Assembly: GCA_903873965.1 (NCBI GenBank)
Contig: CAIQQO010000017.1
Coordinates: 1-34,719, forward strand
From: an uncultured bacterium
GTDB taxonomy: Bacteria > Chloroflexota > Anaerolineae > J036 > Brachytrichaceae
Direction: 5' to 3'
DNA: 34,719 bases
This document shows positions 16,925-34,719 of the stretch, in pieces. Each line of letters begins with the position of its first letter. Within the stretch, counting starts at the first letter, position 1. Position numbers and translations under genes: made by a program. Under the pieces are notes generated by a model. That model was not told the DNA's origin. It worked only from the letters and a program-made list of their open reading frames with translations, and made no database searches.

Positions 16925-16955
16925 TTTAAGAATCTTAAAAAATGAAATCTTAAAA
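16925..16955. repeat. AT-rich inverted and direct repeats after glyQS stop
   Basis: TTTAAGAATCTTAAA (16925-16939) is a perfect 7-1-7 palindrome. Its half AATCTTAAAA recurs at 16946-16955, across the glyQS stop codon. It has no GC stem, so it is not a clear terminator. The rest of the gap up to 16764 shows no feature I can name. Confidence 0.3.
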
Positions 16956-19952
16956 TCCTTCCATCTTGCTCAAGTCAACCAACCCTTGCGCCTGCGCGAC
17001 GACAGCCTGCAACAATGCCAGGCGCCCGCGCCGCACGGCCTCATCTTCGGCCATGACCAACACCTTCTCGAAGAAGACATTGATCGGCGCGACAAGCGTG
17101 GACAGGTTGCTCATCAGCCCGTTCACGTCGCTGGCGGGTTTTAATGCGACAACAACGTTGTATAGGTCATGCGTCGATGTATCCGGATCGGCACTCACGT
17201 CAAGCGGCAATGTCTCTTTAAGGTCGCGTGTGATGCGCGCGCTGCGTGCATAAGCCGCGAGGATAGGCGCCCACTCCGCCTGCTTGACCCACTGCGTCAA
17301 TTGTTCAACGCCGAGTTGCGCGCAGTATGGATCGTCGCCATGCATCGCAATGATGGCATCAACAGCATCGAAGCGGTTGCCGGCTTCGAGCAACAAGGCG
17401 CGCTGGCGCTCGCTGATGAACTTGTTCGCAGCATTAAGCGCATCCGCATCAGCGCGCACTGGCAGTAGCGCCGCCGCCGACTTCAGTCCTGCACGCAATG
17501 AGAAGGAGCGCTTGCTCTCGACGAGGTTTTGCACCACGCCGATGGCAGAACGCCGCAAGGCGAACGGGTCGGCTGATCCCTTCGGTGCGAGACCGATGGC
17601 AAACAGGCCGGCGATGCTATCGAGTTTATCGGCCAGTGACACAATCAACCCGGCCAGCGTGTCGGGCGTGTCATCTCCTGCATAACGTGGCAGGTAGTGT
17701 TCGTAGATGGCAGTAGCCACCGCATCGACATGCGTCGTTTCGTCACTGCCATGATTCAACTTGTAATACTCGCGCCCCATCACGCCCTGCAGCGAGGTGA
17801 AGTCGATCACCATGCTGGTGGCAAGGTCGGCTTTGCACAGGTGCGCTGCACGTTGGGAGATTGACTGATCCACCTCTCCAGCGCCCAACGTGTCGCCGAT
17901 AGTGTGCGATAACTTTTTAATGCGAATGGCTTTATCGAACATCGATCCCAGCTTGGCCTGGAATGTGAGCGTTTCCAGCTTGGGAAGATACTCGTCCAGC
18001 GGCTTCTGGATATCGTGGCGGAAGAAGTAGGCAGCATCGGCAAAACGCGCGCGCAACACGGCTTCGTTGCCGGTGCGGACTTCGTCGATGTGCTGTTCGT
18101 CGCCATTACGCACGGCGATGAAGTGCGGCAACAGCGCGCCGGTGTTGGCGTCAATCACCGGGAAGTAGCGCTGATGTTTCCGCATGACGGTCATCAGCAC
18201 CTGTTGTGGAATCTGCAGATAGTCGGGATCAAACGAACCGATCAGCGCAGTGGGCTGCTCCACCAGATTAGTCACTTCGCTGAGCAGGTTCGGGTCGATT
18301 GGCACGCGCCCGCCGACAGTGGCCGCAATGGCTTCGACCTGTTTACGGATGATGTCGCGCCGCGTGTTGATATCGGCCACGATGTGACGGTCGGCCAGGC
18401 GTTTGGCGTACTGCGCTGCTGTGCCTAGTTGGAAGGGCTTGCTGCCTTTGCCGCGCGGGCCGATGCTGGTGTTGCCGCTGTGCAATCTGGCGTATTCAAA
18501 CGGGACGACATTGCGGCCCAGCAGCGCCACGATCCAGCGGATCGGGCGCGAGAAGGCCACATTGGTGTCATTCCACCGCATCGTTTTCTCAAAGCTGAGT
18601 TTGGCAATCACGCCGGGGAGTACCTGGGCCAGCACTTCAAGCGCGGGACGCCCGTCTTCGTGTTTGTTCGCGTATACATAGCTGCCCTGCGCATCTGTCT
18701 TCACGACAAGCGTCGCAGGATCAATGTTGAAGCGCTTGGCAAAACCTGCTGCTGCGGGTGTAGGCTTGCCGGCGGCGTCAAACGCTACCTTGGCGCTTGG
18801 GCCACGCACCAGTTCATCGAGCGAGCGTTGCTGCGATGCAATGCCTTCGACCAGTGCGGCGACACGGCGCGGCGTGGCGAACAGCTTGATCTCACCATGA
18901 TCCAGCCGTGCTTCATCCAGCGCCGTAGTGAGTAGCTTGCCGAGTTGGTCGCGAGCCACCGTAACATCACCGGCGGGCAACTCCTCTACGCCCACCTCAA
19001 GCAGTAGCGGCACCGGGACCTTCAGCACTGTGACGCTCTTTTTCTCCTCTTCCTTACCTTTCTTTACCTCAGCGCCTTTCGCCAGCCACGGATAACCCAT
19101 GTCTTCGCGCTGTTTGAGATAGGCAGTGGCGACTTGTTTCGCCAGTTCGCGCATACGGGCAAAGTAGCGCGCGCGTTCAGTGACGCCAATAGCGCCACGC
19201 GCATCGAGAAGGTTAAAGGTGTGCGAGCAGTTCAACACATAGTCGTGCGCCGGTGTGACCAGTCCGCGTTCAAGCGCACGTTTGGCCTCGCCTTCGTAGT
19301 CATCGTACAGTTCATGCAGCACTTCGACATCGGCTTCGTTGAACGCGTACTTGCAGCGCTCTATCTCGGCGCTCAGGTTGACGTCGCCATAGGTGCGCTG
19401 TTTGTCCCACCGCAGGTCCCATACGGCGCGCACATCCTGAATGCTGTGCGACATTGCGATGCGCTCCAATCCATAGGTCAATTCGAGTGAAACCGGATTG
19501 AGCGTGAAACCGCCGGCTTGCTGAAAGTAGGTGTACTGTGTGATCTCAAGCCCGTCCAGCCACACTTCCCAGCCCAGTCCCCATGCGCCAAGCGCAGGCG
19601 ACTCCCAGTTGTCCTCCACGAACCTAATGTCGTGGTGCGCCGGGTCGATGCCGATAGCCTTCAAGCTTTCGAGGTAGAGCGCCTGTGGTTCCGCGGGCGC
19701 CGGCTTCAGGATCACCTGAAATTGCGTGTGCGTGTACATGCGATTCGGGTTCTCGCCAAAGCGACCATCATCGGGGCGCACAGAAGGCTCAACATAGGCC
19801 ACGTTCCATGGCTCAGGGCCGAGCACGCGCAAGTAGGTGGCGGGGTTCATTGTGCCGGCACCGACGACCTGATTGTAGGGTTGCCAAATCAGACAGCCCT
19901 GATCGGCCCAGAATCTTTGCAATTTGAGGATGAGATCTTGAAAGGTCAACAT
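16950..19952 (-). CDS. glyQS: Glycine--tRNA ligase, alpha and beta subunits fused in one chain
   Basis: Charges tRNA-Gly with glycine for translation. Residues 1-290 are the complete alpha (catalytic) subunit, with [19 protein letters not shown] at the start and [10 protein letters not shown] / [10 protein letters not shown] motifs. A short charged linker follows (about 293-312, rich in Lys and Glu). Residues 315-1000 are the beta subunit: [12 protein letters not shown] start, a [11 protein letters not shown]-type segment (707-715), [14 protein letters not shown] (792-805) and a C-terminal anticodon-binding domain of DALR type. In most bacteria these are separate genes glyQ and glyS; one-chain forms are known from chlamydiae and plant organelles. 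No Shine-Dalgarno sequence is seen before the ATG; a TATATATAA lies about 7-15 bases upstream, so a very short leader is possible. Divergent from the MFS gene. Confidence 0.96.
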
Positions 19953-25173: not shown

Positions 25174-25229
25174 ATGCCGGCCGCACCAGGCGCCTGCAGA
25201 TCGGCAGGCCGATGGTGCTTGGCAGGCAT
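25174..25229. other. Multi-tier hairpin between the AAA+/RF gene and pcrA
   Basis: Three nested stems: GCCTGC/GCAGGC (25192-25197, 25204-25209, six-base loop), GCACCA/TGGTGC (25183-25188, 25213-25218) and ATGCC/GGCAT (25174-25178, 25225-25229). Together they cover most of the 73-base gap and reach the upstream stop codon. There is no T run, so it is more likely a processing or stability element, or a weak terminator, than a full stop. Confidence 0.5.
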
Positions 25230-28171
25230 TAGTCCGTCGTCATCTGCAGGTAAGCCAGCAGAAAATCGTCCAGATCGCCAGCCAGCACTTTTTTCGGCTG
25301 GTTGCTGGTACGACCGGTGCGCGCGTCACGCACTTGCTGTTGTTTGTAAAGCGTGTACACGCGTACATGATCTGTCAGCGAGATCACGCCATCGGCATCG
25401 ACAACTTTTACATCACTATCCTGACGATGCAACTGGGCGGTCAGAAAACGAATTGCCTGTTGCGTCAGTTCTTCCTGTCCGATAGCGTTACGCCAGTGAA
25501 ACGTGCGTCCCGTTGGCTGACCGCCGGTGATCTGGCTGATTACGGCGCTGCGCGTGATGCGCTCGGTAACGATTCCGGCCTCGCGAACGGCGTGGCTTTC
25601 ACAGCGCACAAGCTTCTGCATATCGGGTGTGGGCGGCAGGTCGGCCTCTACATCCACATGCGCCCAAACACTCAGGCGCGGATCGCCTTTTTTGCCGGTC
25701 TGGCCGCGCACCAGCCGGTGCGACCCGGTCTCGCCGCGCAACAGGGCATACGCTCCAAATCCAGCAATGTTGAGTGTGACTTCACTCAGCGCACCGTTCG
25801 TCACTGCTTCGTTCAGCAGAGTGACGTGAAACCTGCGTCCCATGCCCCACGCTGTGTACATCTCAATCAATGTTCTGACCCATTCCCCAGCAGCGGGCGT
25901 ATCATCCAACTGGCCAATTTGCCGTACAGTCACAAACGCCGGAGACTGGTCTTCCTCCGTTCTCAGGCACAGCATCAACTCGGTCAGCGGCAATTCGCGC
26001 GTCAATTCATTGTAGAGTGGCGCTACTTCATTGGGCAGCACGGCGACCTTGCCGCGCGCCGGCCTGACATTACCCAAGGCCGCCTTGAGTTGTTCCAGCA
26101 ACTGGCGTACGTTCTCAGCCTGATCGACGCGCTGGGTTAACTGATTCAGTATCTCCATCTGCGCTGTGGCTTCCTGGGGCTGTTGCCAGAATTCAGGCTC
26201 GCCGATGCGCTCCATCATCTTTTCAACGCGCGCTTTCTGCTCATCAATACGATATTGCTCGAACATGAGCGTCACGCGCGCCTCATATTGATCCAGCGCC
26301 AGGCGCAAGTCTTTAAGGTTCGGTAAGGGGATGTCAACAGCGGCCGCCATTTGCCCGCTGCGTAATGCCTCCCCATCTGCGGATTCGGACAGATTCAGCA
26401 AGCCGACCTGAATGTCGCTGTTACGCACCATCAGGCGCACGGCCGCGCCTGGTTCCAATCGCTTGCGGGCGATTTGGCGCGCCAGCGGGTATGTGATGCT
26501 GCGTTCGATCTGGCGCTTAAGATAACGCGCGCCGTAGCGCAGGTCATAGCCGCGCTCCACTATCAAATCGAGCACTGCATCATCCACGCTGATCTGGAGG
26601 TTTTGACGCACGATGCCCTCGCGCGAGATGACCTCGATCACCTCGCGCTGCGCGATCTGGCGGATAACGTGGCGCGGTAGCGGTTTGAAGAAACACACGG
26701 CATCGAGACGGTTGATGAACTCGGGTCGAAAGTATTTTTCACTCTGGCGGATCACAGCGTGTTCGGCTTCCAACATCGGATCTCTCATGCGAAAGCCAAT
26801 CGTCGGGCCAACCTGTTCTGCACCCAAGTTGGATGTCAGTACGATGATGGTATTGCGCAGGTTTATCTCCTCGCCCGCTCCGTTAAACAAGATGCCCTCA
26901 TCGAACAGTTGCAGAAAGCGCTGGTTCACCAGCTCATGCGCCTTCTCAAATTCATCCAGCAGCAGAACCGAAAAAGGTTGTCCATTCAGGCGCATCGACA
27001 GTTGCCCTTTTCGAAGGGACTCGTTATCTCTGAGTGGGTTGCCAAACAACAGGGAAAGTTGCCAATCTTCCGCGTAGTCAGCCATATTGAAACGCACGAT
27101 ACGATCCGGCCCGCCGAAGAGAAACTGTGACAGCGCCTTGATCAGTTCGGTTTTGCCAACTCCCGTCGGGCCGATAAATAGAAATACGCCCATCGGTCGC
27201 AGCGGATTGTTCAATCGCGCACGCACCAGGGCTATCATGCGCAGAATCGCGTCGACCGCCTGTTCCTGCCCGTAAACCCGCCTTGTCAGGGTAGCGCGCA
27301 CTGCCGCTTCATCGTAAGGGGCATCATCCGTGACAAGAAACTCGGGTAGCCCGCTACGCTGAATGAAGCGACGGCGCACTCTATCGCGCTGCAGTATCTG
27401 CGCGTTGCCGGCATCAATGGTGGTGAGGACATCTTTCAATAGATCAATGGCTGAACCGGGCAGCAGTTCATTGACCTGAAACCGCGCAGCCAGTTCGACT
27501 GCTTCGTCACATGCATCTGCTCCGATACTCACCAGGTGAATCACTTCCAGATCTTCGGTGGCTTTGCGAATCACGGGGATGGCCGACACCCGATCCATCT
27601 CGCCGACCGTGATGCCCGAGAACAGGTTTTTATAGCCGGAGTATTCACTGAATAAGGCTTCAAGTGGTCGTGAACGCGCTTCCATGATCATGCGCGGGTG
27701 TTTGCCTTTGAGTAGATCACCGAGTACATAGGCCAGGTCTTGTGGCGAATCATCTTCGCTGATGCCCAGCCCGAGCGCGGTGTGAAAATCGCGCAGGAAA
27801 AGAATCGCGCCTGAATCGACCAATTGCGCCATGAAATCGCCAATATGACTGCTCCACTGGGCTGACCCGCCCAATGCGTTGATGATGCGGCTGGGTGTGA
27901 TCTCGAATACCTGGGCATCACGGAGCGTTTTCGGACATTCACCTCGCGTGATACGGTTGATGGCGTGATGCACCACGGTAGTCTTGCCGCTGCGCGGCCC
28001 GCCCATGACGACCGGATAGAGTTCACCTGGCGACGCCAATGCATTCAACACATCATCTACTTCCTTGTCGCGTCCGTAAGCCACAACCAGTTTCCCGGCG
28101 GCGGAAGCAGCGGTCAAGTTGACTGCGTGGGTGCTTAGCATTTCCATGAAATGGTGGGTGCTTTCTGCCAT
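25229..28171 (-). CDS. Clp-type double AAA+ ATPase fused to an RF2-like release factor domain
   Basis: 980 residues, read as one frame. AAA1 (about 10-280): Walker A GGPRSGKT (57-64) intact, but the Walker B pair is Arg-Asp (127-128) and the Arg-finger site is NLF, so it is probably a non-hydrolysing module. AAA2 (about 295-590): Walker A GPTGVGKTE (334-342), Walker B LLLDEFEK, FRPEFINRLD and sensor-2 GARYLKR are intact; its pore loop lacks the GYVG aromatic. IGF (458-460) sits where ClpA, ClpC and ClpX carry their ClpP-docking loop. Residues about 618-980 follow RF2: PCRF helices with PEFWQQPQ, then RGETGSHRLVR. SPF is replaced by QTG (824-826), the GGQ site reads GIV (866-868), and a literal GGQ occurs at 883-885. 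No Clp N-domain or middle domain. I chose the ATG at 28171 over 28180 because GAGGGG is 9 bases upstream. Proposed role (inference): ribosome-bound rescue or nascent-chain handling. Confidence 0.9.
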   Translation of the reverse strand: MAESTHHFMEMLSTHAVNLTAASAAGKLVVAYGRDKEVDDVLNALASPGELYPVVMGGPRSGKTTVVHHAINRITRGECPKTLRDAQVFEITPSRIINALGGSAQWSSHIGDFMAQLVDSGAILFLRDFHTALGLGISEDDSPQDLAYVLGDLLKGKHPRMIMEARSRPLEALFSEYSGYKNLFSGITVGEMDRVSAIPVIRKATEDLEVIHLVSIGADACDEAVELAARFQVNELLPGSAIDLLKDVLTTIDAGNAQILQRDRVRRRFIQRSGLPEFLVTDDAPYDEAAVRATLTRRVYGQEQAVDAILRMIALVRARLNNPLRPMGVFLFIGPTGVGKTELIKALSQFLFGGPDRIVRFNMADYAEDWQLSLLFGNPLRDNESLRKGQLSMRLNGQPFSVLLLDEFEKAHELVNQRFLQLFDEGILFNGAGEEINLRNTIIVLTSNLGAEQVGPTIGFRMRDPMLEAEHAVIRQSEKYFRPEFINRLDAVCFFKPLPRHVIRQIAQREVIEVISREGIVRQNLQISVDDAVLDLIVERGYDLRYGARYLKRQIERSITYPLARQIARKRLEPGAAVRLMVRNSDIQVGLLNLSESADGEALRSGQMAAAVDIPLPNLKDLRLALDQYEARVTLMFEQYRIDEQKARVEKMMERIGEPEFWQQPQEATAQMEILNQLTQRVDQAENVRQLLEQLKAALGNVRPARGKVAVLPNEVAPLYNELTRELPLTELMLCLRTEEDQSPAFVTVRQIGQLDDTPAAGEWVRTLIEMYTAWGMGRRFHVTLLNEAVTNGALSEVTLNIAGFGAYALLRGETGSHRLVRGQTGKKGDPRLSVWAHVDVEADLPPTPDMQKLVRCESHAVREAGIVTERITRSAVISQITGGQPTGRTFHWRNAIGQEELTQQAIRFLTAQLHRQDSDVKVVDADGVISLTDHVRVYTLYKQQQVRDARTGRTSNQPKKVLAGDLDDFLLAYLQMTTD

Positions 28172-28253
28172 CTTGTTCATCCCCTCTACATACTCACTCG
28201 ATACCCTGCACGGCTTTGCTATACCTTGGGGACAGTCGTTGTAATCGTGCTAA

Positions 28254-28968: not shown

Positions 28969-31900
28969 TTATTTCTCGATATTAAACTTCGCGCCATCGC
29001 TGCTGCCAAACGTCTCGGGGAAGTACGTTTCCGACACGTTGGCTGGCATCACCTTAAACGTTCCTGCGATGCTTGGCCGGATGACGTAGGTGTACTCATA
29101 GGTCCCTGCGGGCAGGTAACTGGCAAAGATCGCCGCGTGATCGTCGCGCAGCTCGATGTGGCTGAACCACCACCAGCCCCAGCCGCCAGCGCCACCGATC
29201 TCTTGCACGCCGGTTTCTGTATCAACGTGCTGGCTGGTCTTGAGCGATGTGTCCACGGCCTCAGCGCCGCCTGGTAGCGGGTCGTTTAGCTGAACGAAGT
29301 GCAGGTCATTCGGCGCCACGACGGTCAACCGCACGCGCACATTCTGACCGATCTTTGCGCTCGTTACTGCGTCGCACGGCTTGCCTGGTTCTGGTTTGCA
29401 GTCGGCCAGTTCGTAGCGTCGTGCAATCACGATGCCGCGATCCAGCGCCTTCGCCTCATCGGCGGGAAGGTATACCTTCAGGCGCGCGGTGTAGTACATT
29501 CGTCCGGTGCCAGCGCCGCGCTCGAAGATCAGTTCGTTGGTTTGGCCTCGCAGCAGTTGCGCTACTGGCGCCGAGTACTTGACTGATGAGCCGAGGGCTT
29601 CTGCACTGGCCTGTCCGCTCATCACGGCATCACCATTGAGCGTAGTGCGCCAGGTGTAATCAGCCGCCTTCTCGCCCACTGCATCCGACCAGTCCTTTAG
29701 CGCCATGACAGCCCAGGCGATCTCCTGATTGCTCTGCCAGCTCTCGCCTTCGCGCGCGACGAGCAGCCAGCGCACAACGTTGCTGCTCAACGCGCTGGTC
29801 GGATCGAGTCGCGCCAACGCGCTCAACACGACGGCTGTGCTGCGCGTGTTCGTGCCGAAGAGGAATGGATCCTGAGTCTTCTCCTGCCACATCATGCCAG
29901 TCGGCCCGCTTACAGCCGCGCTGGTCAGATCTGATAACAACGCCTTGACGCGGGTATCGCCCTGATTCACCGTATCGAGGCTCATCGCCAGCATTGCCTT
30001 GCTCGCATAGTTCAACGTGTCTCTATTTTCGTACAGTTGTCCGAGCCGCCCGCTGTCGTCGGCACCCGATTCGGTCAGCGCAAACATCACGAAAGCCTGC
30101 TGGTTAGCGAGGCTCGGACGCTTGTCCACCGCGATCAGGCGATTCACCAGAAATTCGCGTGCATGCGATAACGCATTGGCATCGACGCTGAACCCGCCTG
30201 TCTGAGCATGCGCCAGTGCGAGCAGGACATAGGCGGTCATGATCGTGTTGCTGTCGTCAGAAATCCACCAGCCCCAACCACCATCGCTGTGTTGGCTGCT
30301 CAATAGCCGCTGAATTGCGCGCGTCACGTTGTCGGGTGTGCCTGCGTTCTGTACGGCAACGCTTACCGCCAGGCGCGATGCCGTTGTCTCTGCGTTTTCG
30401 TACGGATAGGCCTGCAACAGGTTGTCGCTGGTCTTGATCACCGCGGCCAGCGCCGGGTCAACCTGCACGTCCAGTTGACCTTGGCCTGTGTCCAGGCGCT
30501 CAGGCAGCGCAACGATCTCCAGTTTCTTGCCCGGTTCGCTGACATCACCCGCTGTCGCCACAGTCTCGGGCGAGGCGTAATGCAGGATCGGGATGCCCTG
30601 ATCGGGCGCAGTCGCCAGCCCGGGCTTGCTGCTGTCGGTCAGCCCTTGAGCGCCGCTGTCTTTCACTGCAAACGTGAGCACAGCACTGGGTGCGTCATCT
30701 ACAGTCACGATCCAGTTGACGCGCGTCGAGCCCTTGGCCGGAATCGTTACTTGCTGCGGCGCGCTGTCGCTCAATGTAACGCCCCTGGCCTCAAGCGTTA
30801 CAGCCGCTTGAATGTCGGCGCTGGTGTTGTTGTTGACCACGGCGCCCAGCGTCACGGAGTCGCCAACCACGAAGAAGCGTGGCGAAACCGGACGGATGAG
30901 CAACGGTTTGGTCGACAGGATTTCGTTTTTAGCCTGTCCTGCCTTGCTGTCGGATGTGATCGCGCGCGCATCCAGCGACCATGTTGTCAGGTTATCGGGC
31001 AGGCGCACCTGCACCTGGGCTGCGCCATTGGCGTCGGTGTTGACGACGGCCGTCCACAGTGCGGTGTCTTTGAAGTCCTGACGCACAAAACTGGAGTCGA
31101 GTGCCCCCGCCAGGCCGCCTCCACCGCCGCCTTTGGCGTTCTCGGCGATGATCTTGGCCGTGATGCGGTCAACGTTGATGTTCAAACTATCAGCAGTATG
31201 CACGCCCAGTCCGCGCACGCCATAGAAGGCGTCGAGGATTGAGGGGCTGTTTGGGTCGGCCAGGCTCAATACAGCCTTGTCAACTAGCGCCAGCGATAGT
31301 TCTGCCTTGACCGGTTTGCCGGTGGAATCCGTCACCTTGATGTCGTAGGTGACAGTGTCGCGCGGGGTATAGCTCGGTTTGTCGGAAGTCACGGCTACAT
31401 GGAGTGCAAACTGATCGGGGTTGACCTGGAATCCCACCATGCCGACTTTATAAGAGGGCACAGGGTTATTCCCGTCAACACCCTTGACCAGCACGACCGA
31501 CACGAATGCATTCGGCGCATAACCGGCTTCCACCGGAATTTCGATGATGTCACTGTTAGTCTGTAGTTGCACCACCCGATGTGACAAGAAGCGGCCGCGC
31601 TCGATCGACAACAACGCGGTTACACTGCCATCATAGGGCGACGGGACAAGCACTTTGACTACATCGCCGACTTTGTATTGCTGCCGATCCGTCTTCAGGT
31701 CGATGCGGTCGTTGTTATTCACGCGCCAGCCGACGTAGTCACCGCCGGATGATACATACACGGAGTTGCCGGCCATGGGGCCTGCTTCGCCGGCACCCTT
31801 CACGACGGCATGGAACTCACCACCACCTTTCGGTATGAACGAGGTTGTGATTTTGCCATCGGCACCAGTCTTGATGTCACTGGTTGAAACGAGCGTGTCG

Positions 31901-34719
31901 CTGGGCACCGATGTGAACGTGCCGTTGCCATTCTTGTCCTGCTCCTGCGCCGTAAACCATTCGCGCTGATAGGTCGACACTGTCGCACTCTTGTCGGCGA
32001 CGGGCTGGCCATGCCAGTCGACAGAAATCACATCGAACTTCAGCTCTTTGCCCGAGACGCCGATGTAATCCTGCGGTGCGATGCCGAGGTAGTAATCGCT
32101 CTTGTGGATGACGGCCTCGGTACGCGCTGAGACGCTCTGGTCGTTGGCGTCGGTGACGCTGAGTTCGAGCGAGTAGACGGCGCTGTTCTTGCGCTTGCTG
32201 ATATCGGCGGGCACCGTAATGTCGATATGACCGCTGCCATCCGTCTGTCCAATGCCGTTGGCGATTTGTTCGTTGTAACTGACTCCCCGATAGAATGAGT
32301 CGTAATCACCGAACACATAGTTCCCGGCGCCCTTGTATCGGTCGAAATAGAAATCGCGCGCAAACAGCGTCCACTGCACCTTGGCGTTGGATACGTTACC
32401 GCCGAAGAAGAACTTCGCGTCCACGGCAGCTTTGAATGTGTCGTTGGCCAGGTAATCGGTCTTTTCTGTGTTGACGATGACTTCAAACTCGGGCAGTCGA
32501 TAAGCCGCTACCTGGAACTGGACACCGTAGTTGCGGCACTGCGGTTGGCGTATGTTGCCGTTAGCAGGAGCGTTGATGGCATTGCCCTTGAAGCCGGCGG
32601 CGGTGTCAAAAGGCAGGCACGTCTGCACGTAGTAGTAACCGGTGGCGGCAGCATTGTCCAGTGCAAAGGCGCCGCTGAACGTGCCGTTGGCGCTCACAGG
32701 TAGCGTCGTGCTGAAAACAACCTGGCCCTGGTCGTTATTGATCGCAATGTCGGCCGACGTGATTTTTGGCGCCAGGGTGTAACGCGCGTCATCTTCAGAG
32801 CGCACGATGCCCTTGTAATAGACCATCTGGCCGGGTCGGTAGATTGGGCGCTCGGTATACATATACGCCATGTATCGCGTGCTGCCAAACTGCGTCTGCA
32901 AGTTGAAGTCGTATGGGTTGATGCCTTGATCCCAGCGGTTGTAACCCAGGCCAAAGTTGGCCTGCCCCGGCTGACCGATCACGGCATAGAAGGCGGTGTA
33001 CTCTTCGAATGGCCCGGCGAACTTCGCCAGCAACTGCCCGTCATCCGAAGTAACGCCCTGCTTGATTTCGTTAAAGGAGCGGTCGTAGAAAGACACGGGC
33101 AAGTTGCCTGCAGGCTGGCCGTCATTCAGGTTTGTGACCCACAAGAGCGCCTCGCGCTCGGCCTGTTTCAACGTCACATGCAGGTTCGAAACGACCAGGA
33201 TGTGGCGTGCCGGCTCGTAGTATTGCACGGTTGCCGCGGCTTCCGGCGCAGTGAGTGTGAGAATGTAGATACCTGGCGCCAGACTGCCTTCATCCTGGGC
33301 GAGTGCGACTGAGGCGAAGGCGACTTCGTTCAACCCCGCCGTCGTCAACTGCGACCAGGTGCGCACCACTTGACTGTCCTCGGGTTTGAACTGCCGTATC
33401 AGTTCGTAGGCATTATCGGTGCCGGTGAACTGGTAGAACTGCTCTGGTGTGAGTGAAGCCAATTGCAGGTCAAGTTTGCTGACGTTGCGATAGGTGGCAA
33501 ACAACCGGGAGGATTTGCCGGCGTCATACGTGCCCATCACGCCGTTGGTGTTGAGCACCGCATACGGAACGAGTGGCGCCGTGGTGAACTGCACCACCGT
33601 ATTCTTGCCGATCTTCACGCCGTATTGGTCGGCGATATCGCCGCCGATCGTCAGTTTGTACGCCGTCGAAGGCTGCAATTGCAGATTGAGATAGAAACTC
33701 TTGTCGTTCGCATCGTAATAGCTGTACACCTTGGTTAGCGTAATCCCTGGCTCAAAGGTCAGGTTGGGCACGATGGTTTCGGGAAGGACTGGCGCCGTAA
33801 AGCGAATAGTGACGCCATTGCCCGAATCGGCTTTGTTGTTTCCATTGGTGGGCGACGTACTCGCGACGGCTGGCATCAGAATTGAACGGAAGGCAAACTT
33901 GCGTTGGCTCTTGGTGCCGCTCGATCCCAGCAATGCTTTTGCGCCGGCGTCAATCACCACGGTATACATGGTGTTACGGTTGTAATCCTGGTCTGGTACA
34001 AAAGCCATCACCTCGCCCGAGACGGGTGTGGTCTGCGGTGGTGTGCCGACGGCCAGATTCTGGCTGGTGCCTGAACGCTGCACCAGCGTTGTGTCGACCA
34101 CATCGTCAGACCAGCGGAACGTACCGGGGACATCAGGCGTGATCTTGAATGCCGCTTCGGCCGAGGCATGATCCATCTTCTGGCTGAATGTGATGCTGAT
34201 CGGGCGGCGCAGGTTGACATCAATAGTCGTGTCTTCGGGCGAGAGTGCCTTAATCGTCGGCGCAGCTACGCTGAAGCTCCACGAGTACTCTTTCTGTAGC
34301 AATGCGCCAGTGGTGTCTTTCAGCCCTGCGGCAACTGATCCCTTATAGACGACGCCGGAGGCCAGCGGTTTGCTTGGGCGGAACAGGTAGATGCTGGTGT
34401 TCAGCCACTCGCCCTGACCTTCGATCGTAGGTGTGAACTTGACCGGCGTGGGTAAATCGGCCTGCTGGCCGATACTCGTCAATGGCACGACCGGGCGATT
34501 GAATAACACCGTGATGCGCGCATCAGCGGCCACATCCTTCGCCCCGCCAGAGGGGATGGTCTGGGCCACATCAAGGAAGCCGATGGTGCTGATGTTGAAA
34601 ATCTGCGGGCGCGCCAGAGCCAGCCCGCGCGCGCTCTTGGCGGTGTCTTTCAGGCTGATCGTGTACTGTGTTGCGCGCTCCCAGGTCGCCGCATTGCCGG
34701 GCGTACTGGGAAGCAAGGC
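28969..34719 (-). CDS. Alpha-2-macroglobulin family protein, N-terminus off the window edge
   Basis: About 1917 residues are visible; the frame continues past the right edge, so the true start is not in the window (the TTG at 34716 is not a real start). The visible N-terminal part has bacterial Ig-like Big_5-type domains (for example LSPEDTTIDVNLRRPISITFSQKMD-like segments). Macroglobulin domains follow, then a Gly6 stretch near 31120-31135 close to the expected bait region, the A2M domain (TALWTAVVNTDANGAAQVQVRLPDNLTTW), a toroid with GGWGWW, and a C-terminal receptor-like domain. Bacterial A2M proteins sit in the periplasm or on the surface and trap proteases. The thioester motif (CxEQ after YPY) is here YPYENAET (30385-30408): Cys and Gln are lost, so covalent trapping is not expected. 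Signal peptide or lipobox cannot be judged. Confidence 0.93.
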   Translation of the reverse strand, partial: ALLPSTPGNAATWERATQYTISLKDTAKSARGLALARPQIFNISTIGFLDVAQTIPSGGAKDVAADARITVLFNRPVVPLTSIGQQADLPTPVKFTPTIEGQGEWLNTSIYLFRPSKPLASGVVYKGSVAAGLKDTTGALLQKEYSWSFSVAAPTIKALSPEDTTIDVNLRRPISITFSQKMDHASAEAAFKITPDVPGTFRWSDDVVDTTLVQRSGTSQNLAVGTPPQTTPVSGEVMAFVPDQDYNRNTMYTVVIDAGAKALLGSSGTKSQRKFAFRSILMPAVASTSPTNGNNKADSGNGVTIRFTAPVLPETIVPNLTFEPGITLTKVYSYYDANDKSFYLNLQLQPSTAYKLTIGGDIADQYGVKIGKNTVVQFTTAPLVPYAVLNTNGVMGTYDAGKSSRLFATYRNVSKLDLQLASLTPEQFYQFTGTDNAYELIRQFKPEDSQVVRTWSQLTTAGLNEVAFASVALAQDEGSLAPGIYILTLTAPEAAATVQYYEPARHILVVSNLHVTLKQAEREALLWVTNLNDGQPAGNLPVSFYDRSFNEIKQGVTSDDGQLLAKFAGPFEEYTAFYAVIGQPGQANFGLGYNRWDQGINPYDFNLQTQFGSTRYMAYMYTERPIYRPGQMVYYKGIVRSEDDARYTLAPKITSADIAINNDQGQVVFSTTLPVSANGTFSGAFALDNAAATGYYYVQTCLPFDTAAGFKGNAINAPANGNIRQPQCRNYGVQFQVAAYRLPEFEVIVNTEKTDYLANDTFKAAVDAKFFFGGNVSNAKVQWTLFARDFYFDRYKGAGNYVFGDYDSFYRGVSYNEQIANGIGQTDGSGHIDITVPADISKRKNSAVYSLELSVTDANDQSVSARTEAVIHKSDYYLGIAPQDYIGVSGKELKFDVISVDWHGQPVADKSATVSTYQREWFTAQEQDKNGNGTFTSVPSDTLVSTSDIKTGADGKITTSFIPKGGGEFHAVVKGAGEAGPMAGNSVYVSSGGDYVGWRVNNNDRIDLKTDRQQYKVGDVVKVLVPSPYDGSVTALLSIERGRFLSHRVVQLQTNSDIIEIPVEAGYAPNAFVSVVLVKGVDGNNPVPSYKVGMVGFQVNPDQFALHVAVTSDKPSYTPRDTVTYDIKVTDSTGKPVKAELSLALVDKAVLSLADPNSPSILDAFYGVRGLGVHTADSLNINVDRITAKIIAENAKGGGGGGLAGALDSSFVRQDFKDTALWTAVVNTDANGAAQVQVRLPDNLTTWSLDARAITSDSKAGQAKNEILSTKPLLIRPVSPRFFVVGDSVTLGAVVNNNTSADIQAAVTLEARGVTLSDSAPQQVTIPAKGSTRVNWIVTVDDAPSAVLTFAVKDSGAQGLTDSSKPGLATAPDQGIPILHYASPETVATAGDVSEPGKKLEIVALPERLDTGQGQLDVQVDPALAAVIKTSDNLLQAYPYENAETTASRLAVSVAVQNAGTPDNVTRAIQRLLSSQHSDGGWGWWISDDSNTIMTAYVLLALAHAQTGGFSVDANALSHAREFLVNRLIAVDKRPSLANQQAFVMFALTESGADDSGRLGQLYENRDTLNYASKAMLAMSLDTVNQGDTRVKALLSDLTSAAVSGPTGMMWQEKTQDPFLFGTNTRSTAVVLSALARLDPTSALSSNVVRWLLVAREGESWQSNQEIAWAVMALKDWSDAVGEKAADYTWRTTLNGDAVMSGQASAEALGSSVKYSAPVAQLLRGQTNELIFERGAGTGRMYYTARLKVYLPADEAKALDRGIVIARRYELADCKPEPGKPCDAVTSAKIGQNVRVRLTVVAPNDLHFVQLNDPLPGGAEAVDTSLKTSQHVDTETGVQEIGGAGGWGWWWFSHIELRDDHAAIFASYLPAGTYEYTYVIRPSIAGTFKVMPANVSETYFPETFGSSDGAKFNIEK

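Follow-up and report, generated by a model that had tools for sequence, protein, structure and literature searches.

A Clp-type AAA+ ATPase and a release-factor-2-like part joined in one protein chain of Chloroflexota

One chain with a Clp-type part and an RF2-shaped arm

A gene on contig CAIQQO010000017.1 of an uncultured member of the Chloroflexota (assembly GCA_903873965.1; the whole 34,719-nucleotide stretch analysed is called the window) raises the question of what a protein does in which a Clp-type AAA+ ATPase is followed, in the same chain, by a part resembling the peptide release factor RF2. The gene occupies positions 25229 to 28171 of the minus strand, on which all of the parts described below also lie, and encodes 980 residues, or 983 if translation starts at the ATG at 28180. 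A GAGGGG ribosome-binding site (28181 to 28186, minus strand) was read by eye nine bases ahead of the ATG at 28171. The single-chain fusion had been proposed in an earlier, sequence-only reading, and is confirmed by the domain search, the predicted structure and 105 relatives: two Clp-type AAA+ modules are followed by a short linker (residues 594–616; 26324 to 26392) and a complete RF2-shaped C-terminal part (residues 619–979; 25235 to 26317).

The C-terminal part is matched end to end by the RF2 profile and has the RF2 fold in the predicted structure. The sequence-only reading had staked its assignment on PCRF and RF-1 matches in the last ~360 residues; in the window protein the PCRF match was found and the RF-1 hit was not, and Clp_N is absent from the Pfam families shown. 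The 50 Foldseek matches listed for the first model are Clp-type chains only, and RF2 is among the VIA rows.

Features kept and lost in the arm and in the motor

The motif counts refer to two sets of fusions. From 113 identifiers (P0002 to P0114), P0029, in which the RF part is incomplete, and P0030 and P0031, which are copies of loci, were excluded, and P0092, P0094, P0113 and P0114 fell below the cut for the RF part. The RF counts were made on 128 fusion rows, consisting of 106 proteins and 22 loci with some proteins present twice (111 rows remain under 90% identity), and the AAA+ counts on 105 non-redundant fusions, to which the 124 rows of at least 940 residues are reduced under 90% identity.

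At the catalytic columns, GGQ is present in 0 of the 128 fusion rows versus 8 of 8 ordinary factors, and SPF is found at its own columns in 0 of the 128. The GGQ domain (domain 3) is reduced from about 94 to 25–46 residues in 78 of the 128 rows, which include type B (the types are described below). In the window protein, RF domain 1 (residues 640–735, the span used for the conservation count; 25967 to 26254) lies inside the PCRF match, domain 2 (residues ~745–845; 25637 to 25939) is without SPF, domain 3 (residues ~850–925; 25397 to 25624) has no GGQ at the catalytic columns and the lowest conservation among the RF domains, and domain 4 (residues ~935–977; 25241 to 25369) contains RDARTG. Because GGQ and SPF are lost, the arm would serve neither stop-codon reading nor peptide release, and the motif counts indicate that it is not a release factor. 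The working class-I release factor of the sequence-only reading is thus not supported, one branch being without most of the GGQ domain. Domain 4 of RF2 adjoins the decoding centre. Domains 1, 2 and 4 are retained as the peptidyl-transferase domain wears away, suggesting a platform that may still dock at the place of RF2. Entry of the arm into the ribosomal A site, as the sequence-only reading proposed, is still plausible.

Within the AAA+ part, module D1 (residues ~8–262; 27386 to 28150) keeps its Walker A motif in 105 of the 105 fusions (GGPRSGKT in the window protein, residues 57–64; 27980 to 28003). The D1 catalytic Glu and the arginine-finger pair RRF are each found in 0 of the 105, and the Asp preceding the Glu in 11; among the ordinary Clps of the phylum, the Glu and the finger pair each occur in 5 of 6. 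At the Walker B place of D1 (AILFLRDFH, residues 122–130; 27782 to 27808), the window protein has RD where ordinary Clps have DE. Module D2 with its small domain (residues ~290–590; 26402 to 27304) has complete catalytic motifs: Walker A (GPTGVGKT, residues 334–341; 27149 to 27172), Walker B (residues 403–409, with DE at 406–407; 26945 to 26965), TSN, EFxNR and GAR are each present in all 105, although the strict patterns used lose some ordinary Clps (D2 Walker A 4/6, EFxNR 5/6, GAR 5/6).

None of the 105 fusions has the GYVG pore loop of D2, which all six ordinary Clps of the phylum possess, and the corresponding place in the window protein (residues 377–391; 26999 to 27043) is likewise without it. 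In pore loop 1 of D1, an aromatic residue occupies the usual column in 83 of the 105, and a W stands four columns further in 103. ClpA relies chiefly on D2 as its motor, and its pore-1 tyrosines touch the substrate (PMC9663308). By this comparison, the fusions appear to retain the main ATPase motifs but not the substrate grip, and the losses indicate that the Clp fusion is not an ordinary threading unfoldase. The sequence-only reading had proposed ATP-driven remodelling or extraction of the nascent chain; the case for pulling that chain through the pore is weakened, as D2, the only ring with complete catalytic motifs, is without GYVG in 105 of 105.

In the loop after sensor 1, which is the ClpP-docking place of ClpA and ClpC, xG[FL] was found in 102 of the 105, with a first letter that varies widely; the window protein has IGF (residues 458–460; 26792 to 26800). 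In P0058 the pattern found no loop, so that it was untested for xG[FL], and an earlier count of 89/105 had used a poorer pattern.

Spread, descent and surroundings of the family

The same build, which the sequence-only reading had suggested looking for in other genomes, is found elsewhere in the Chloroflexota. Searches of protein collections gave 28, 74 and 9 proteins, and PCRF occurs together with Clp domains in 110 of the 111 according to the precomputed Pfam list. The sole exception, P0029, belongs to type A; its RF part gives way to a tail resembling a glycyl-radical enzyme, and it is probably a metagenome chimera, broken elsewhere than at the Clp/RF junction. All of the named carriers belong to the Chloroflexota (Anaerolineae, Roseilinea, Thermoflexales, Aggregatilineales, Herpetosiphonaceae and "Chloroflexi bacterium"). 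With the window protein as the query in a class-level genome sample, matches at 1e-100 were obtained in 15 of 396 genomes, including G294, which is cut by a contig end and whose RF part was not seen; G670 is also truncated at a contig end. A type B query in a phylum-level draw matched 25 of 400 genomes, and frame length and match extent assign 15 of these as fusions and 10 as other proteins, three of which (L084–L086) were read individually. Another scan matched 38 of 396 genomes, including 14 fusions, and L087–L089 were read from the remainder. In G278 and G300, stops fall beyond the fusion frames, which are themselves open. In the family of the window genome, the fusion was found in 6 of 28 genomes, and in none of the four other genomes of its genus.

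Four types were distinguished, with G341 and P0105 standing outside them. Type A, to which the window protein belongs, has full-length forms of 962–1067 residues, type C consists of the Herpetosiphonaceae proteins (~960–1080 residues), and type D of frames of 1018–1038 residues. Type B proteins mostly have 1140–1190 residues, with ~190 extra residues at the N-terminus. As a separate observation, type B residues ~1–190 resemble two HicB/UPF0150-like domains, with a weak Pfam UPF0150 match in P0098 and none at 0.01 in P0085.

In the tree of the RF part (33 fusions and 8 ordinary factors) and in that of the AAA+ part (33 fusions and 22 ordinary Clps), the fusions all fall to one side of a 100/100 branch. 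Types B and D cluster with P0105, which forms a long branch, in both trees (100/97 for the RF part and 94/87 for the AAA+ part). The placement of type C differs: in the AAA+ tree it groups with type A and G341 (100/100), and in the RF tree it falls outside type A, weakly (87/38). Six gene pairs were compared, and their dN/dS ratios span 0 to 0.23 over all domains. Constraint is weakest on domain 3 in five of the pairs (0.05 to 0.23); the sixth is of type B, where domain 3 is only a remnant and synonymous changes are near saturation. D2 and RF domain 4 stay at or below 0.095. Among 20 type A proteins, D2 (mean pairwise identity 0.76) and RF domain 4 (0.71) are the most alike, followed by domain 1 (0.60), D1 (0.58), domain 2 (0.56), domain 3 (0.40) and the linker (0.14). 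Both trees and the low ratios indicate that the Clp-RF2 fusion arose once and is maintained by selection. No halfway form was met among the unfused proteins read as candidate forerunners: L014, L015 and L016, which rank among the best unfused matches from relatives, retain GYVG or GYIG and the D1 DE.

In the window, the upstream neighbour is a lipoprotein-like gene, followed by a terminator-like hairpin (read by eye), and a UvrD helicase gene lies 73 bases downstream of the fusion. Elsewhere, with gene labels judged from the sequences, the fusion in five type A loci of another genus runs convergently to a cluster from which two or three genes are present, including an XPB-helicase-like one, and three type B loci of one genus have a globin-like gene after the fusion. 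In three type C loci of Herpetosiphon-like genomes, the fusion stands between a pyrR-like gene and genes of pyrimidine synthesis. Read individually, L091, L094 and L095 have the fusion directly after the pyrR-like gene, the next gene being aspartate-carbamoyltransferase-like (L091, L095) or dihydroorotase-like (L094; labels assigned by eye), which puts the fusion within a pyrimidine operon; L090, the fourth type C locus, has no pyrimidine context. No specific gene context is common across the types; a shared operon was rejected, as the neighbour clusters common between types are only common-paralogue-like (response regulators, glycosyltransferases and the like, by eye). A defence system was also rejected, as PADLOC matches are confined to the AAA+ part. 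Further from the fusion, the window carries the alpha and beta subunits of glycyl-tRNA synthetase in a single frame of 1000 residues (16950 to 19952), and a bacterial alpha-2-macroglobulin-like protein of more than 1900 residues that runs off the window end (28969 to 34719).

In most of the genomes examined, ordinary GGQ factors, tmRNA and ClpP occur alongside the fusion. Of 26 fusion genomes, 23 have two full-length GGQ factors (in G116, one of the two is a long stop-to-stop frame), and one was found in G000 (75% complete), G341 and G300, which rules out the fusion as a replacement for RF2. tmRNA was found above the cut-off in 13 of 14 fusion genomes, the exception being G000, and its replacement by the fusion is likewise ruled out; in the family of the window genome, tmRNA is above the cut-off in G015, G022, G023 and G266. 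NFACT_N, the domain of RqcH, is absent from the type A genomes and G341 and present in the B, C and D genomes searched (8 of 14 in all). Above the curated cut-off it was found in 0 of the 28 genomes from the family of the window genome, whether they carry the fusion or not, so that no link to a replacement of RqcH is seen. ClpP is present in 14 of 15 fusion genomes, including that of the window, and was not found in G116 (81% complete).

Possible function and the alternatives

The fusion shares with ClpC, ClpA and ClpB the two AAA+ modules in the same fold and order, the catalytic motifs of D2, the GAR sensor 2 and a loop located where ClpP would dock. It differs in having no Clp_N among the Pfam families shown, in the loss of the catalytic Glu and arginine fingers from D1 and of GYVG from D2, in its RF2-derived arm, and in standing on a separate branch from 22 ordinary Clps. 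With PrfB it shares the domain order and fold of RF2, but it has no GGQ, no SPF and no RF-1 hit, and in type B only 25–46 residues of domain 3. The CHAT-like ClpC frames L084–L088 from other Chloroflexota (~1170–1225 residues with a long N-terminal region, labelled CHAT-like by eye) also combine a Clp ATPase with an added region; the frames read retain GYVG and the D1 DE, however, and showed no RF part. Defining features of both parent families are missing from the Clp-RF2 fusion, although by descent it is still a Clp-family ATPase. We know of no system with a Clp motor and an RF fold in one chain. The sequence-only reading had likewise known no precedent, and the literature search, whose coverage mostly left out subscription journals and bioRxiv, found no description of the architecture. 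In the accessible text, the word Clp is absent from a survey of release-factor evolution (PMC6514570), and the architecture is not in PMC3711429. The automatic name "ClpA/protein subunit release factor B" in JGI records means that annotation software has met the join, but no description of it was found.

RF folds without release motifs can act as ribosome- or RNA-binding factors, as judged from Balon and PrfB3 (PMC10901736, PMC5897788). Our tentative proposal, to which we give somewhat less than an even chance, is that the fusion is a D2-powered Clp-family ATPase that docks to ribosomes through its dead RF2 arm and uses ATP to remodel or clear the docked complex. Such a remodeller is the simplest machine, since the arm offers a platform and the one working ring is without pore grip. 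The chains would form a hexamer like other Clp proteins, and RF domains 1, 2 and 4 would go on binding at the RF2 site, close to the decoding and GTPase-associated centres, but would neither recognise particular codons nor terminate translation. The strokes of D2 would then move the tethered arms against the ring instead of threading a chain hand over hand, and protein freed by the remodelling might go to ClpP. The targets would be stalled or idle ribosomes, alongside ordinary RF1/RF2 and trans-translation. We infer everything here beyond the intact ATPase motifs of D2 and the RF2 fold. A fuller version is a little less likely: a ribosome-docked AAA+ machine of single origin, in which dead RF2 arms around a single-motor Clp ring clear or dismantle stalled or idle complexes without codon reading, release or threading, perhaps delivering to ClpP. 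It would be a bacterial one-chain counterpart of a eukaryotic RF-like factor and Cdc48; there, the RF-like Vms1 interacts with the AAA+ ATPase (PMC6514570), but the two are separate proteins and the factor is of the aeRF1 type.

Several observations weigh against ribosome docking by a single motor. The SPF and the HTSF-like stretch are gone and much of the decoding-centre surface is altered, and the switch-loop WG of RF2 turned up only in 7 of 12 type C rows, with a crude pattern by which most ordinary factors are missed too. No translation factor was recognised beside the gene in the loci read, three Herpetosiphon-like genomes place it among pyrimidine genes, and its presence is patchy in the family of the window genome. 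D1 may still be a weak ATPase, and the IGF-like loop may be a relic, as PGF, RGF, TGF and the like stand for IGF in many proteins.

A rather unlikely alternative is a ribosome protection or hibernation factor, in which dead RF2 arms sit on idle ribosomes and the ATPase mainly removes the protein. Balon, a hibernation factor that sits in the A site, likewise has RF homology without the codon-recognition and GGQ motifs, though it belongs to the aeRF1 family and is found with EF-Tu (PMC10901736). The accessory distribution (6 of 28 family genomes) also fits such a factor, but 78 of the 128 rows have lost most of the GGQ domain, the part expected to extend to the peptidyl-transferase centre, and a large ATPase is expensive for a plug. 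Balon is not known to carry an AAA+ ring.

That the RF part instead works off the ribosome, as a protein–protein adaptor bringing substrates to the Clp motor with ClpP, is unlikely: the docking-place loop, the near-constant presence of ClpP and the lost ribosome-contact motifs of RF2 favour it, but the missing GYVG of D2 argues against threading into ClpP, and the RF domain most conserved in type A is domain 4, which in RF2 lies beside the decoding centre. Less probable again is an RNA-binding regulator, whose RF2 fold would bind transcripts while the ATPase remodels the RNA–protein complex. PrfB3 of land-plant chloroplasts is an RF2 relative without SPF and GGQ that binds the petB 3'UTR, and the accessible text mentions no ATPase for it (PMC5897788), in which it differs from the fusion. 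Three type C genes adjoin pyrR-like genes, but this context is confined to type C and is absent from one of the four type C loci read.

That the protein is a functional release factor tied to an unfoldase, to which the end-to-end RF2 match and the RF2 fold might point, is very improbable given the absence of GGQ and SPF from every row and the separate GGQ factors in the same genomes. The sequence-only reading had allowed for a frameshift or misassembly near 26300–26420; a join of two genes by such an artefact is virtually excluded. Nothing speaks for it: the junction is a poorly conserved linker, and P0029 looks chimeric, but away from the junction. Against it, the uninterrupted build recurs across independent genomes and contigs, both trees agree on a single branch, and the domains are conserved with dN/dS far below 1 on both sides of the junction.

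Selection maintains the fusion across more than 100 diverged proteins, even though it lacks defining motifs of both parents. Ribosome binding by the arm would mean that bacteria have an AAA+ motor working on the ribosome itself, and would open to testing a form of Clp action that does not thread its substrate; the Herpetosiphonaceae relatives may belong to culturable bacteria. Even if the arm does not bind ribosomes, the protein is an RF2 fold co-opted for a different use, with the erosion of its GGQ domain caught in stages.
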